Source: Accumulibacter sp. (GTDB lineage: Bacteria; Pseudomonadota; Gammaproteobacteria; Burkholderiales; Rhodocyclaceae). From it: DNA of 38,717 nucleotides. The notes beneath the pieces are model-generated. The model saw nothing but the letters and a program-made list of their open reading frames with translations, did no database searches and was not told the origin of the DNA. Where the stretch lies: positions 1 through 38,717 of the forward strand of contig NZ_JAMTDV010000026.1 of the NCBI RefSeq assembly GCF_023806565.1. The letters run 5' to 3'. Positions 10,864 through 19,640 of this stretch are shown here, piece after piece. How positions within the stretch are numbered: the stretch's first letter is position 1; every line of letters begins with the position of its first letter. The position numbers and the translations under genes were made by a program.

Positions 10864-11689
10864 GCGCCCCCCGCAGACGGCTTTCGGCTCGCGCCGCCTC
10901 GGCCAGCAGGACTGCCAGCGGCGGCACGTCGGTATCCCACTCGATCAGCGTCGGACGCGGGCCGAAGCGCGCCAGTGCAGCCTCGTACAGTTGCCAGACC
11001 GGCGGCTGTACCGGCCGCCCGTGCGTATCGATGAGGAAGTCGTCGCAGTCGTCGTAGCCGGCCAGGTGGATTTCTCCGACCGCGGCGCGCGGCATGGCAT
11101 CGAGGTAGCGACGCGCGTCGAAACCATGGTTGGACGCCGACACATGGACATTGTTGACGTCGAGCAGGATGCCGCAACCGGTACGCCGGGCCACCTCGGC
11201 GACGAATTCCCATTCGGGAATCGTCGAATCGGCAAAGGCGACGTAGCTCGCGATGTTCTCGACCAGGATGGTCCGCCGCAGCACATTCTGGAGCGCGTCC
11301 ACGCGCTCGCAGACGACGTCCAGCGACTCCTCGACGTAGGGCAGCGGCAGCAGGTCGTTGAAGTGCCGGCCATCCACCGACGACCAGCACAGGTGTTCGG
11401 ATACCGCCGCCGGATCGATCCGGTCGACCAGCGCTTTGAGCTTTGCGAGGTGCCGGTCGGCAGCGTCGCCCGATCCGAGCGACGAACCGACTCCGTGCAG
11501 GCTCAATGGATAATCGCGGCGGAGATTCTCCAGCAGGTGCAGGGCGGGGCCGCCGCCGGCGAAGAAATTCTCCGAGTGGACTTCGAGCCAGCCGACCGCG
11601 GGCCGCCGTGCAAGCACTTCGGCGTGGTGCGGGGCGCGCAGGCCGATACCGGCCTGCAGCGGCAGTGTCGTGTGGACGGGGGGCGACAT
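10847..11689 (-). CDS. bufB: DUF692 multinuclear non-heme iron oxidase (MNIO), BufB-type
   Basis: A 280-residue TIM-barrel DUF692 enzyme of the MbnB/HvfB/BufB group. The expected iron ligands are visible in order: WLEVHSENFF, SLHGVGSSLGS, VSEHLCW, VENIASY, LLDVNNVHVSASNHG, EIHLAGY, DTHG and LIEWD. Family members oxidise cysteine residues of a ribosomal precursor peptide, forming sulfur-containing heterocycles or related groups that bind copper. The start at 11689 (MSPPVHTTLPLQ) is preceded by GGAG; a longer open frame continues upstream across the bufA region and is rejected. It begins 26 bases downstream of bufA and overlaps bufC. Confidence 0.93.
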   Translation of the reverse strand: MSPPVHTTLPLQAGIGLRAPHHAEVLARRPAVGWLEVHSENFFAGGGPALHLLENLRRDYPLSLHGVGSSLGSGDAADRHLAKLKALVDRIDPAAVSEHLCWSSVDGRHFNDLLPLPYVEESLDVVCERVDALQNVLRRTILVENIASYVAFADSTIPEWEFVAEVARRTGCGILLDVNNVHVSASNHGFDARRYLDAMPRAAVGEIHLAGYDDCDDFLIDTHGRPVQPPVWQLYEAALARFGPRPTLIEWDTDVPPLAVLLAEAARAESRLRGAHVRAA

Positions 11690-17035: not shown

Positions 17036-17917
17036 ATGCCTGTAACTCCTTTGGAACTGGTGGGACTCAGCAGCCTGATGGAGCGGACCGCCGGTAGGTC
17101 CAGCGTAAGGATCGGACTGATTGATGGTCCGGTCCTCGCCCGCCATCCCGACCTGGTGAGCGAGAACGTCAGCGAGCTTTCTGGAAGCTTCGCCGGCGCA
17201 TGCTCGCGGCCGAGCAGTGTCGCCTGCCTGCATGGGACTTTCATCGCCGGAATCTTGGCCGGCAAGCGGGGTTCGCCGGCCCCCGCCATTTGTCCGGGCT
17301 GCATCCTGCTGGTCCGCCCGATCTTTGCCGAGACGCCTCGCGGAACGGAATTGATGCCGCGAGCAGCGGCCTGGGAGCTCGCGGCAGCCATCATCGAGTG
17401 CATCGACGCAGGTGCGAGAGTGGTGAACCTGAGCCTCGCGGTTGCTTCTGCGTCCGTACGGGACGAGCAGGTGCTCGATAACGCGCTTGATCAGGCACTG
17501 CGGCGAGGCGTACTGGTGGTCGCGGCCGCGGGGAATCAGGGCACCCTCGGAAGCTCCCCGATCACCCGTCACGCATGGGTGCTGCCGGTAGCAGCCTGCG
17601 ACCGGCGCGGACACCCGACCAACGATTCCAATCTCGGCAGTTCGATCGGCAGGCGCGGCCTCGCTGCCCCGGGGCAAGCAATCACGAGTCTTGGTGCGCA
17701 AGGGCAGCCGCTGGAGTTGGGCGGAACGAGTGTGGCCACGCCTTTCGTGACCGGTGCGATTGCGCTCCTTTGTTCCGAGTTCCCCGCCGCGACGGCAGCG
17801 GAGATCAAGTTGGCGCTGGCCAATGCGCATGGCGCACGCAGGCCTGCGGTCGTCCCACCGCTACTGGACGCCGCTGCGGCCCACCGAATCTTGCAGACAG
17901 CAACAGGGAGGAGGTGA
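17036..17917 (+). CDS. PatA-type subtilisin-like serine protease (S8)
   Basis: A 293-residue subtilase with a complete catalytic set: Asp30 in GLIDGPV, His66 in CLHGTFIAGI, oxyanion Asn167 in AAAGNQG, and Ser232 in GGTSVATPF. It has no signal peptide and no propeptide, so it should act in the cytoplasm, which fits the cyanobactin maturation proteases (PatA/PatG family) better than secreted subtilisins. C56 and C64 flank the His region and C86/C89 form a CPGC pair. The ATG has AAGGAG 10 bases upstream. It is the first of four closely spaced genes, with the gene for the 72-residue protein starting 5 bases after its stop. Confidence 0.9.
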   Translation: MPVTPLELVGLSSLMERTAGRSSVRIGLIDGPVLARHPDLVSENVSELSGSFAGACSRPSSVACLHGTFIAGILAGKRGSPAPAICPGCILLVRPIFAETPRGTELMPRAAAWELAAAIIECIDAGARVVNLSLAVASASVRDEQVLDNALDQALRRGVLVVAAAGNQGTLGSSPITRHAWVLPVAACDRRGHPTNDSNLGSSIGRRGLAAPGQAITSLGAQGQPLELGGTSVATPFVTGAIALLCSEFPAATAAEIKLALANAHGARRPAVVPPLLDAAAAHRILQTATGRR

Positions 17918-17922
17918 ATTGA

Positions 17923-18141
17923 ATGTCATCGGCGAGTGGCGGCGAAGCCGCCGACAAGGAGGAGTTTTCGCGCCACCAGATACGTCTGCCGGGGTTCATG
18001 GGCGAGGAGCCGGTCGGCCTCGGCGAGGTGATCAAAAGGGCGACCTCGTACCTTGGCGTGACCGCTTGCGACAGCTGCGAACACCGTGCAACTGTACTCA
18101 ACCGCTGGCTCGCTTTCACCGGCTCGCGGAAAGGCAGGTAG
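17923..18141 (+). CDS. Small CxxC protein of the PatA/PatG-like locus
   Basis: A 72-residue protein. The ribosome site GGGAGGAGG overlaps the stop codon of the subtilisin gene, so it is almost certainly cotranslated. The core reads VGLGEVIKRATSYLGV, then CDSCEHRATVLNRWLAF, with a CxxC pair followed by a helical R-x-LNRW segment. I recall this LGxVIKRxT-C-x-x-C-xxRAxxLNRW pattern in many uncharacterised small proteins, but know no function for it. The first 25 residues (SSASGGEAADKEEFSRHQIR) are polar, and LPGFM echoes the IPGF motif of the 153-residue protein. It may be a substrate, a leader-binding partner, or a metal-binding helper. Confidence 0.8.
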   Translation: MSSASGGEAADKEEFSRHQIRLPGFMGEEPVGLGEVIKRATSYLGVTACDSCEHRATVLNRWLAFTGSRKGR

Positions 18142-18209
18142 GAACGGCTTTGGTTGCGAGCCGGCATTTTCAGCGTACGCAACCGTCTGTCAACCGAAGG
18201 AGGGTAGGC

Positions 18210-19151
18210 ATGGATGAACAACGGGAGACTCCGTCATCAGGTTGGCCGGACAGCGCAAGCGACGCACGTTCCGGCGAACTTTCACGAGGGGCAGGCGCAG
18301 AGAGGTCGATCGCACCACAGGCAGCAGACGGACCCGCCTGCTGTGGGCAGCTTGCCGACATCAGTCCAAATGGTCGATTGGTAGCCTCTTACGTATATGC
18401 GGTCGGGCGCGTCGAGGCCCGTTTCCCGACGTTGTCCTCGGAAAAGGAATTCGCGCAGGCGGCCGGACGGGCGGATACCGCCGGCAAGACGGATCAGCAG
18501 ACCTTCTACACCGTTCTCTCGAAGCACGAGAATCGCTACCTGGTTCGTCAGTTGTGCTGGGTCCTTCGCATCCAGGGGCTGGAGACCTATCTGCTGCAAC
18601 CGCGCGCACTCGCCGATATCGATCTGCTGGTCGACGCGATCCATCCGGATCGCAGCGCCAACGACATCGACGTCGTGATCGGCGTTCGCGGTCCGATTGC
18701 ACCACCGGAAATGTGCAACGGGCTGATGGTCCCGCTGGTGGCCTTCGACCAGATCTATTCGTTCGACTGCGACGCCCTGGTCAAGGCCATTCCGCGCCCA
18801 GAGGCCGCGCTCGCCGAGCGCTTCGAACCGGCGGCCAGGGAGCTGTTCCACCGCATCATGCAACTGACCGACAACGCCGGGGCGAGCGACGAGCACCGTG
18901 CCTTGAACTATCTCGCGATGCGCTATCCGGCGATCTACTGGAAAGCCGCCGAACAATTCGGCCGCGACTTTTCGCTGACCAGGGTCGAAGTGCGTCCATC
19001 GGCGCTGAGCGGTACGCGCAGGATCGTCGATGCCATCTTTTCGTATACCAATCGCAACACCGATTTCACGGAGAAGTTTTCGGTTCGCGTCGACATTGGC
19101 GAGGAGTTTCCGTTCCTCGTGACCAAGCTTTCGCCGTGCTTCGACTTCTAG
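18210..19151 (+). CDS. Protein resembling the C-terminal region of cyanobactin protease PatG
   Basis: A 313-residue protein with ATG at 18210 after GAAGGAGGG. From about residue 56 it reads VASYVYAVGRVEARFPTLSSEKEF, ENRYLVRQLCWVLRIQGLETY, VVIGVRGPIAPPEMCNG and FDQIYSFD, which I recognise as the conserved region that follows the subtilisin domain in PatG-type cyanobactin macrocyclases. Here it is a separate protein from the protease, which suggests a split PatG. Residues 1-50 are low-complexity and polar, with a CCG motif at 44-46. There is no signal peptide or membrane span. The function of this domain is not known; recognition or delivery of the substrate is plausible. Confidence 0.82.
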   Translation: MDEQRETPSSGWPDSASDARSGELSRGAGAERSIAPQAADGPACCGQLADISPNGRLVASYVYAVGRVEARFPTLSSEKEFAQAAGRADTAGKTDQQTFYTVLSKHENRYLVRQLCWVLRIQGLETYLLQPRALADIDLLVDAIHPDRSANDIDVVIGVRGPIAPPEMCNGLMVPLVAFDQIYSFDCDALVKAIPRPEAALAERFEPAARELFHRIMQLTDNAGASDEHRALNYLAMRYPAIYWKAAEQFGRDFSLTRVEVRPSALSGTRRIVDAIFSYTNRNTDFTEKFSVRVDIGEEFPFLVTKLSPCFDF

Positions 19152-19178
19152 CCGTGATCGGGAACCGGGAGATCTGAA

Positions 19179-19640
19179 ATGACCGAGATGCGTATACCCG
19201 GGTTCACCGCGAGTGCATCGCTCCACCCGACGACCAGGCATCACTGCGCTTCACCACTCGCAGCCGCTGCGGGCGAGCCGATCGCACCACAGATGGAAAT
19301 GCCCGACCCGAGCGACACTCACGATCAACCGCCCATCCACTTTCACCCTCCACCGCGAGATGACCGACCGCCGTGGTTCCTGGGCGACAACCGGCCGCCT
19401 TGGGCCGGGAGCGATGGCGGAAGCGGGGGTGGGGGCAGTGGCGCGGGATCGGGCGCGAGCGCTTTCGACGAGTGTGTCGAAGACTGCAGGTTCTGGTATC
19501 GAGCAGACAACCGTTTGTGTAACCTGCTCTTAGATGACGACGCCAAGAGCAAATGTGCCGGCACCGCTGGCGACAATTTTGCGAAGTGCTGGTTGAGATG
19601 TAAAGAAGAGAAAAAGCCGTGGTGGTGGCCTTTTGGTTAA
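19179..19640 (+). CDS. Cys-rich protein with IPGFTA N-terminus, candidate substrate of the PatA/PatG-like locus
   Basis: A 153-residue protein with three zones. Residues 4-15 read MRIPGFTASASL, a motif I recall at the start of many small proteins next to PatA-like proteases. Residues 36-95 are rich in Pro (PPIHFHPPPRDDRPPW) and then Gly/Ser. Residues 96-141 contain six Cys: C99-x3-C103, C114, C126 and C137-x3-C141. The twin Cx3C spacing is typical of disulfide-linked helical hairpins (alpha-hairpinin or CHCH-like). The tail is KKPWWWPFG. It starts 27 bases after the PatG-like gene with GGGAGA. A leader-linker-core layout would fit a processed precursor, which is inference. Confidence 0.78.
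   Translation: MTEMRIPGFTASASLHPTTRHHCASPLAAAAGEPIAPQMEMPDPSDTHDQPPIHFHPPPRDDRPPWFLGDNRPPWAGSDGGSGGGGSGAGSGASAFDECVEDCRFWYRADNRLCNLLLDDDAKSKCAGTAGDNFAKCWLRCKEEKKPWWWPFG

Follow-up and report, generated by a model that had tools for sequence, protein, structure and literature searches.

In the contig of Accumulibacter sp. studied here (the window, that is, the whole stretch of 38,717 nucleotides analysed), four genes follow each other on the plus strand. They encode an S8 protease of 293 amino acids (17036..17917), a CxxC protein of 72 amino acids named p72 (17923..18141), a free-standing PatG-DUF protein of 313 amino acids carrying PatG_D and PatG_C (18210..19151; this start is the choice of the first-pass annotation and the open frame itself is longer), and a precursor of 153 amino acids with a leader, a Pro/Gly-rich linker and a six-Cys core (19179..19640). 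ORF calls confirmed the four-gene layout proposed before, including its coordinates and the gaps of 5, 68 and 27 bases. The motifs AAGGAG, GGAGG, AAGGAGG and GGGAG can be read in the sequence 5' of the S8, p72, DUF and precursor starts, respectively. The adjoining genes are minus-strand housekeeping genes (acetolactate synthase subunits, and metallo-beta-lactamase-fold, HMGL-like and biotin carboxylase proteins), and therefore the four genes form a plus-strand unit of their own. Among the 8 flanking ORFs scanned there was one lipase-like gene, on the plus strand further upstream.

The protease matched PF00082 in Pfam (3.9e-24). Asp30, His66 and Ser232, earlier read as an intact triad, aligned with the triads of PatA-type proteases and were present in 74, 75 and 75 rows of the 75-row family alignment, so that reading was right. 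The best PDB match was 4h6w, an N-terminal cyanobactin protease (3.7e-29 with the single sequence and 4.9e-50 with a 24-row profile), and the same profile placed PatA-type proteases (4.9e-50 to 8.3e-47) ahead of PatG macrocyclase chains (about 2e-24). The spacing between Asp and His was 36 in the Accumulibacter protein and 32-36 in 13 family rows, compared with 34-35 in 8 complete PatA-type domains and 71-85 in 6 PatG-type domains; by this comparison the macrocyclase insert is absent between the two residues. The protein is best classed, from its sequence, as a putative PatA-type subtilase without the PatG macrocyclase insert, which narrows the former "PatA/PatG-like" description as far as the protease is concerned.

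In NCBIfam, the T7SS mycosin model (TIGR03921) gave the best score for the protease (2.1e-35), ahead of the PatA/PatG model TIGR03895 (1.6e-29), and both were far below cut-off: 122.5 against 278.75 bits for the first and 103.2 against 421 bits for the second, to which the DUF protein scored 19.2 bits. TIGR03895 is a 606-position model spanning protease and DUF, and its cut-off was missed because the two parts sit on separate chains. The catalytic domain, as read from the sequence, starts near the N-terminus, so neither a propeptide nor a signal peptide is apparent. The family alignment also showed four conserved cysteines (Cys56, 64, 86 and 89; 17201-17302), one of which is beside the catalytic His (Cys64-Leu-His66). 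These could give the protease redox sensitivity.

The second protein, p72, has the pattern RLPGFxx[DE]E..GLGD..K..T...G..PC.GC..RA..LNRW. Its LPGF motif (17986..17997, plus strand) resembles the [IML]PGF of the precursor leader: P23 and F25 were found in 62 of 62 rows, and residue 28 was acidic in 60 of 62, at the position where the leader has Glu. Both cysteines of the CxxC (18067..18078, plus strand) were present in all 62 rows, and in the AlphaFold model (pLDDT 76) this motif opens the second of two predicted helices. No PDB match to p72 was found by sequence or by fold, and neither p72 nor the 153-residue protein matched anything in Pfam or NCBIfam at E 1. Residues 31-67 of p72 (18013-18123) resemble phrog_32048, a phage protein family without assigned function (1.3e-5; a Nonlabens phage, 7e-4), and p72 may therefore belong to a more general type of small helical CxxC module.

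The third protein matched PatG_D and PatG_C in Pfam (1.6e-33 and 6e-31; PF18047 and PF18065, 115.9 against a gathering score of 27 bits and 107.3 against 25.9 bits). This strong profile match verified the PatG C-terminal region that had been recognized in it by eye, and the separate ORFs likewise verified that protease and PatG-type region are on different chains. The protein agreed with the PatG-DUF structure 4uvq (PMC4259220) in the fold test; identity to 4uvq was 18-19%. The free-standing DUFs occupy their own, deeply split side of the tree, parted from 16 fused DUFs of PatA/PatG type by a long branch with 100/100 support, and unlike 4uvq many carry xxPQ together with CxC or CC in a tail at the N-terminus. 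In Accumulibacter this tail reads IAPQ...CC (18309..18344, plus strand), like the second motif and the first Cys of the precursors described below. The motif [VILMFA]xPQ..C..C was found in 35 of the 68 DUF tails examined (shuffles: mean 0.16, maximum 2), and the tail is poorly modelled, with pLDDT below 50 for residues 16-49. The LPGF of p72 and the xxPQ of the DUF tail, short motifs as they are, hint that the partners and the substrate may share recognition or processing elements.

The fourth protein starts with the leader IPGFTASASLH... (19194..19295, plus strand), followed in its last part by a second motif, IAPQ ([VILMF]xP[QASMT]), which is the proposed cleavage region (19281..19292, plus strand). 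With a profile of 46 leaders, of which the Accumulibacter leader is row 1, only this leader was significant in its own genome (6.5e-12; runner-up 0.96). The genome also has a single PatG_C place, inside the DUF protein, so DUF and leader are each single and adjacent.

For the wider family, a leader profile was made from 66 strict motif peptides, and at E < 0.01 it gave 152 matches, representing 148 unique precursors with the consensus [IML]PGFTAEASLYxTxxxY. The IPGFTA start noticed in the first-pass annotation is a conserved leader, common to a large precursor family. The second motif, at about residue 30, was found in 110 of the 148 precursors (shuffles: mean 22, maximum 39) and is missing in 38. 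Leader matches in the 80 DUF loci collected below were located mainly downstream of the DUF start on the DUF strand (133), with 8 upstream and 1 on the opposite strand, and up to twelve occurred in one locus (L074). Variant leaders of the PQFNAESSL type in L014, L016, L022, L024 and L028 were below the profile cut, and therefore the precursor family is larger than counted. A Sec-like hydrophobic stretch (mean hydropathy of at least 1.9 over 12 residues within the first 32) was found in 0 of 146 leaders. Having an encoded precursor, a conserved leader, a variable core and an adjacent processing enzyme, the system is by its sequences a candidate RiPP system. Extra truncated PatG_C copies are located among the precursor genes in L074 (6454-6915 in L139), L041 (6092-6508 in L138) and L012 (87-179 and 1378-1455), as if precursor cassettes moved together with DUF fragments.

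Few genomes carried PatG_C: it was found in 6 of 369 within the class, in 2 of 398 within the phylum and in 1 of 100 within the order, each figure including the own genome. Three of the class carriers (L009-L011) repeat the Accumulibacter gene order, followed by 73-residue Cys peptides starting with MNIPGFTAQ; their identity to Accumulibacter was 59-60% for S8, 45-58% for p72 and 58-64% for the DUF. To collect relatives, an alignment of four DUFs was scanned against a GTDB-based genome collection and the best 80 of 91 loci were fetched. Since the query was itself of the free-standing type, this sample favours DUFs of that kind. These 80 loci carried 13 phylum labels and included isolates of Nitrosospira, Nitrosomonas, Methylobacter, Edaphobacter, Streptomyces and Calothrix; many of the rest came from MAGs, two of them archaeal, and the archaeal MAG locus L063 had the DUF alone. 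Five of the 80 were cyanobacterial, so the former description of the locus as lying outside cyanobacteria was too narrow.

Within these best 80 loci, S8 was found at 76, p72 at 63 and the leader at 65. All three accompanied the DUF at 49, which extends the four-gene association to other genomes. The numbers of loci in which p72 (17), S8 (4) or leader (15) was missing are upper bounds, because contig ends cut some loci and variant leaders escaped the profile. Searches independent of gene neighbourhood agreed with this. With the 46-row profile, in which the Accumulibacter leader is one row, 4 of 274 class genomes had a leader at E <= 1e-3 (G000, G021, G028 and G169), and all four are PatG_C carriers. 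This count is silent on the carriers G032 and G277, which are perhaps outside the 274; two further matches (0.008 and 0.009) are no more than chance would give in a search of that many genomes. For p72 (E <= 1e-4) there were also 4 of 274, three of them PatG_C carriers at 3.3e-26 or better; the fourth was a weak match (3e-5) in a 259-residue frame, and the 4 kb fetched for it contained neither a leader nor S8 or DUF. The four families occur together in dozens of genomes, and their co-occurrence is beyond chance.

The DUF also matched in 5 of 72,556 plasmid records, in four of which it was annotated as hypothetical protein. On a Streptomyces plasmid (L155, 1497-2387 and 5446-8469), the module lies between recombinase and Tn3-family transposase genes, a possible route of spread. 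Two proteobacterial genomes, G032 (one of the class PatG_C carriers; L008 2662-4611) and G680 (the second phylum carrier; L013), had a PatA-like S8 fused with a DUF and lacked a significant IPGFTA leader within the stretch searched; these are either true cyanobactin-like loci or contaminating contigs. A tyrosinase-like gene, named by reading its sequence, was within 8 kb of the DUF in 6 of the 80 loci, all from Nitrosospira or Nitrosovibrio (L021, 4281-5183; L019, L020, L023, L024 and L027).

The Accumulibacter precursor has six Cys in its core, C-x3-C-x10-C-x11-C-x10-C-x3-C (19473..19601, plus strand), and a seventh in the leader region. This frame with twin CX3C, which we take to be like disulfide-bonded helical hairpins, was found in 26 of the 148 precursors, from 23 sources including Accumulibacter (shuffles: mean 2.2, maximum 7). 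In 105 strict-motif precursors, Cys was scarce among the first 28 residues (0.4%) and frequent after them (10.7%). The number of Cys after residue 28 was even (at least 2) in 138 of the 148 unique precursors, odd in 5 and zero in 5, with a binomial p of 8.6e-35 in which related sequences are not independent. When each core family (single linkage, precursors longer than 45 residues) was represented once, 50 of 54 were even, 3 odd and 1 without Cys (p 5.5e-12). The odd counts were nine Cys in L035 and L081, three in L016, and one in L012 and L021.

Control ORFs from the same loci (60-260 amino acids with at least 3 Cys, real and spurious) were 152 even and 160 odd, 33 of these 312 overlapping leader frames; once all ORFs that overlapped module genes or leader frames had been taken out, 106 were even and 138 odd. 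Four of the five matched plasmid loci were fetched and kept outside all profile building, and three had leaders, with six peptides, five even and one odd. Even Cys counts are a signature of disulfide-paired proteins, and from these counts we infer that the cores are disulfide-paired. They strongly back the first-pass proposal of larger, folded Cys-rich proteins as the substrates of the locus.

In a scan of 142 precursors, each model matched no more than one: phospholipase A2 (2e-9; PF08398, 7.7e-4), CBM14 (9e-8), Stig1 (2e-6), DUF6970 (0.004), a Myxococcus Cys-rich family (5.7e-18) and the LDCC putative metal-binding family (0.0073). The phospholipase A2, CBM14 and Stig1 matches point to cores resembling extracellular disulfide-rich folds. 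By reading the sequences, we assigned the phospholipase A2-like core to L081 (10865-11452; best E among members 2e-9) and the core resembling chitin-binding CBM14 to L066 of Actinokineospora (10901-11212; best E 9.1e-8).

The analysis shows a recurring gene set, a leader, even Cys counts and an intact PatA-type protease, and the system is real, widespread and built from two cyanobactin-type domains. We consider the locus to be, with a probability of roughly 60%, a module in which a leader directs the maturation of small disulfide-rich proteins. In such a module the hydrophilic leader would be recognised first; the likeliest partner for this step is the free-standing PatG-DUF, perhaps assisted by p72 through its own LPGF. 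The PatA-like S8 protease would then cut off the leader, most likely at or near [VI]xP[QA] about 30 residues in; the freed Cys-rich core would fold with all Cys paired, and it may be exported to act in an oxidising environment, extracellular or other, although no exporter was found. The order of these events is likewise presumptive. In the 2014 structure report (PMC4259220), the role of the PatG-DUF was left open and the crystallised cyanobactin DUF showed no binding of the precursor PatE by NMR, which makes a plain leader-receptor role less likely, though this counter-evidence carries over imperfectly, since leader and DUF here differ from the cyanobactin ones.

The hypervariable cores, often several per locus and spread over phyla and plasmids, might be bacteriocins or toxins that attack competitors. 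This we hold to be possible and rather doubtful, as neither an immunity gene nor an exporter recurred among the module neighbours examined; it concerns the use of the products and not their chemistry, and could be compatible with a maturation module. It is unlikely that the leader serves as a tag for sorting or export which S8 leaves uncut, with S8 and DUF working in quality control or regulation. The LPGF of p72 and the xxPQ..C..C of about half of the DUF tails would suit it, as S8 might act on these partners, and so would the lack of a recurring transporter nearby. Against it, the triad is kept across nearly all family rows and precursor cutting is known for PatA-type proteases; PatA removes the leader side of its precursor according to PMC4259220 and PMC10885120.

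Nitrifiers and methanotrophs are rich in copper enzymes, many carriers are of these kinds (Nitrosospira, Nitrosomonas, Nitrospira and Methylobacter), and the Cys clusters, some of them CxC or CxxC, include the one precursor matching the LDCC family; the paired Cys might then bind copper or zinc in metal-handling proteins. We find this distinctly unlikely, because strict evenness across very different frames is a better fit to disulfides, some cores match disulfide-rich secreted folds, and Streptomyces and Acidobacteria are also carriers.

A cyanobactin-type pathway to short, heterocyclised head-to-tail macrocycles, for which the homology of the S8 and DUF domains to PatA/PatG speaks, is very improbable in view of the missing macrocyclase insert, the long branch of the DUF tree, Cys-paired cores of tens to hundreds of residues, the absence of the leader profile from ten loci with fused PatA/PatG-type proteins (best E 0.2), and the absence of YcaO, noted before for the locus and now found to hold for the genome (0, against 5 of 14 control genomes that were positive). 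A YcaO heterocyclase is not in all cyanobactin clusters. The module shares with cyanobactin pathways such as that of patellamide (PatA/PatG) the PatA-type S8, the PatG/PatA C-terminal DUF and a precursor of leader plus core, and its gene order, S8 then DUF, is the domain order of PatA. It differs in having S8 and DUF as separate proteins, p72, an unrelated leader and large Cys-paired cores, without PatG macrocyclase or YcaO. A cyanobactin leader with short cores was not found at the locus, where the precursor is a 153-residue protein with an IPGFTA leader. By the tests of macrocyclase insert, leader and cores, and YcaO, the module is not a cyanobactin cluster.

Other known systems are similar in part. 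QhpE, the subtilisin-like protease of the quinohemoprotein amine dehydrogenase operon, is also a small S8 protease maturing a small Cys-rich leader-bearing protein; it differs by the thioether crosslinks in its substrate, by having a single dedicated substrate and by the lack of a DUF, and its NCBIfam model matched our S8 far below cut-off (1e-13; 51 against 165 bits). The double-glycine, Nif11 and NHLP families also have a common leader ahead of hypervariable cores, with another leader, another protease and no PatG-DUF. A leader-directed system for disulfide-rich proteins of the present kind is apparently undescribed so far.

More tentatively, DUF, p72 and the Cys-bearing S8 might jointly recognise, cut and oxidatively fold Sec-less disulfide-rich proteins as a widespread unnamed class. 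The DUF tail (xxPQ..CxC) and p72 (LPGF) would copy the two substrate halves and so couple docking, cutting and thiol exchange, and the same ancestral role might explain why cyanobactin proteins retained the DUF. How disulfide proteins are made and released with a cytosolic protease is a puzzle, because there is neither a recurring exporter nor a Sec-like leader. For the PatG-DUF, the locus offers a free-standing form whose function can be studied apart from a fused protease. If the maturation module is true, the 148 unique precursors in the scanned loci, with hypervariable cores behind a common leader, would belong to a large natural family of disulfide-rich mini-proteins that can be mined with a single leader profile.
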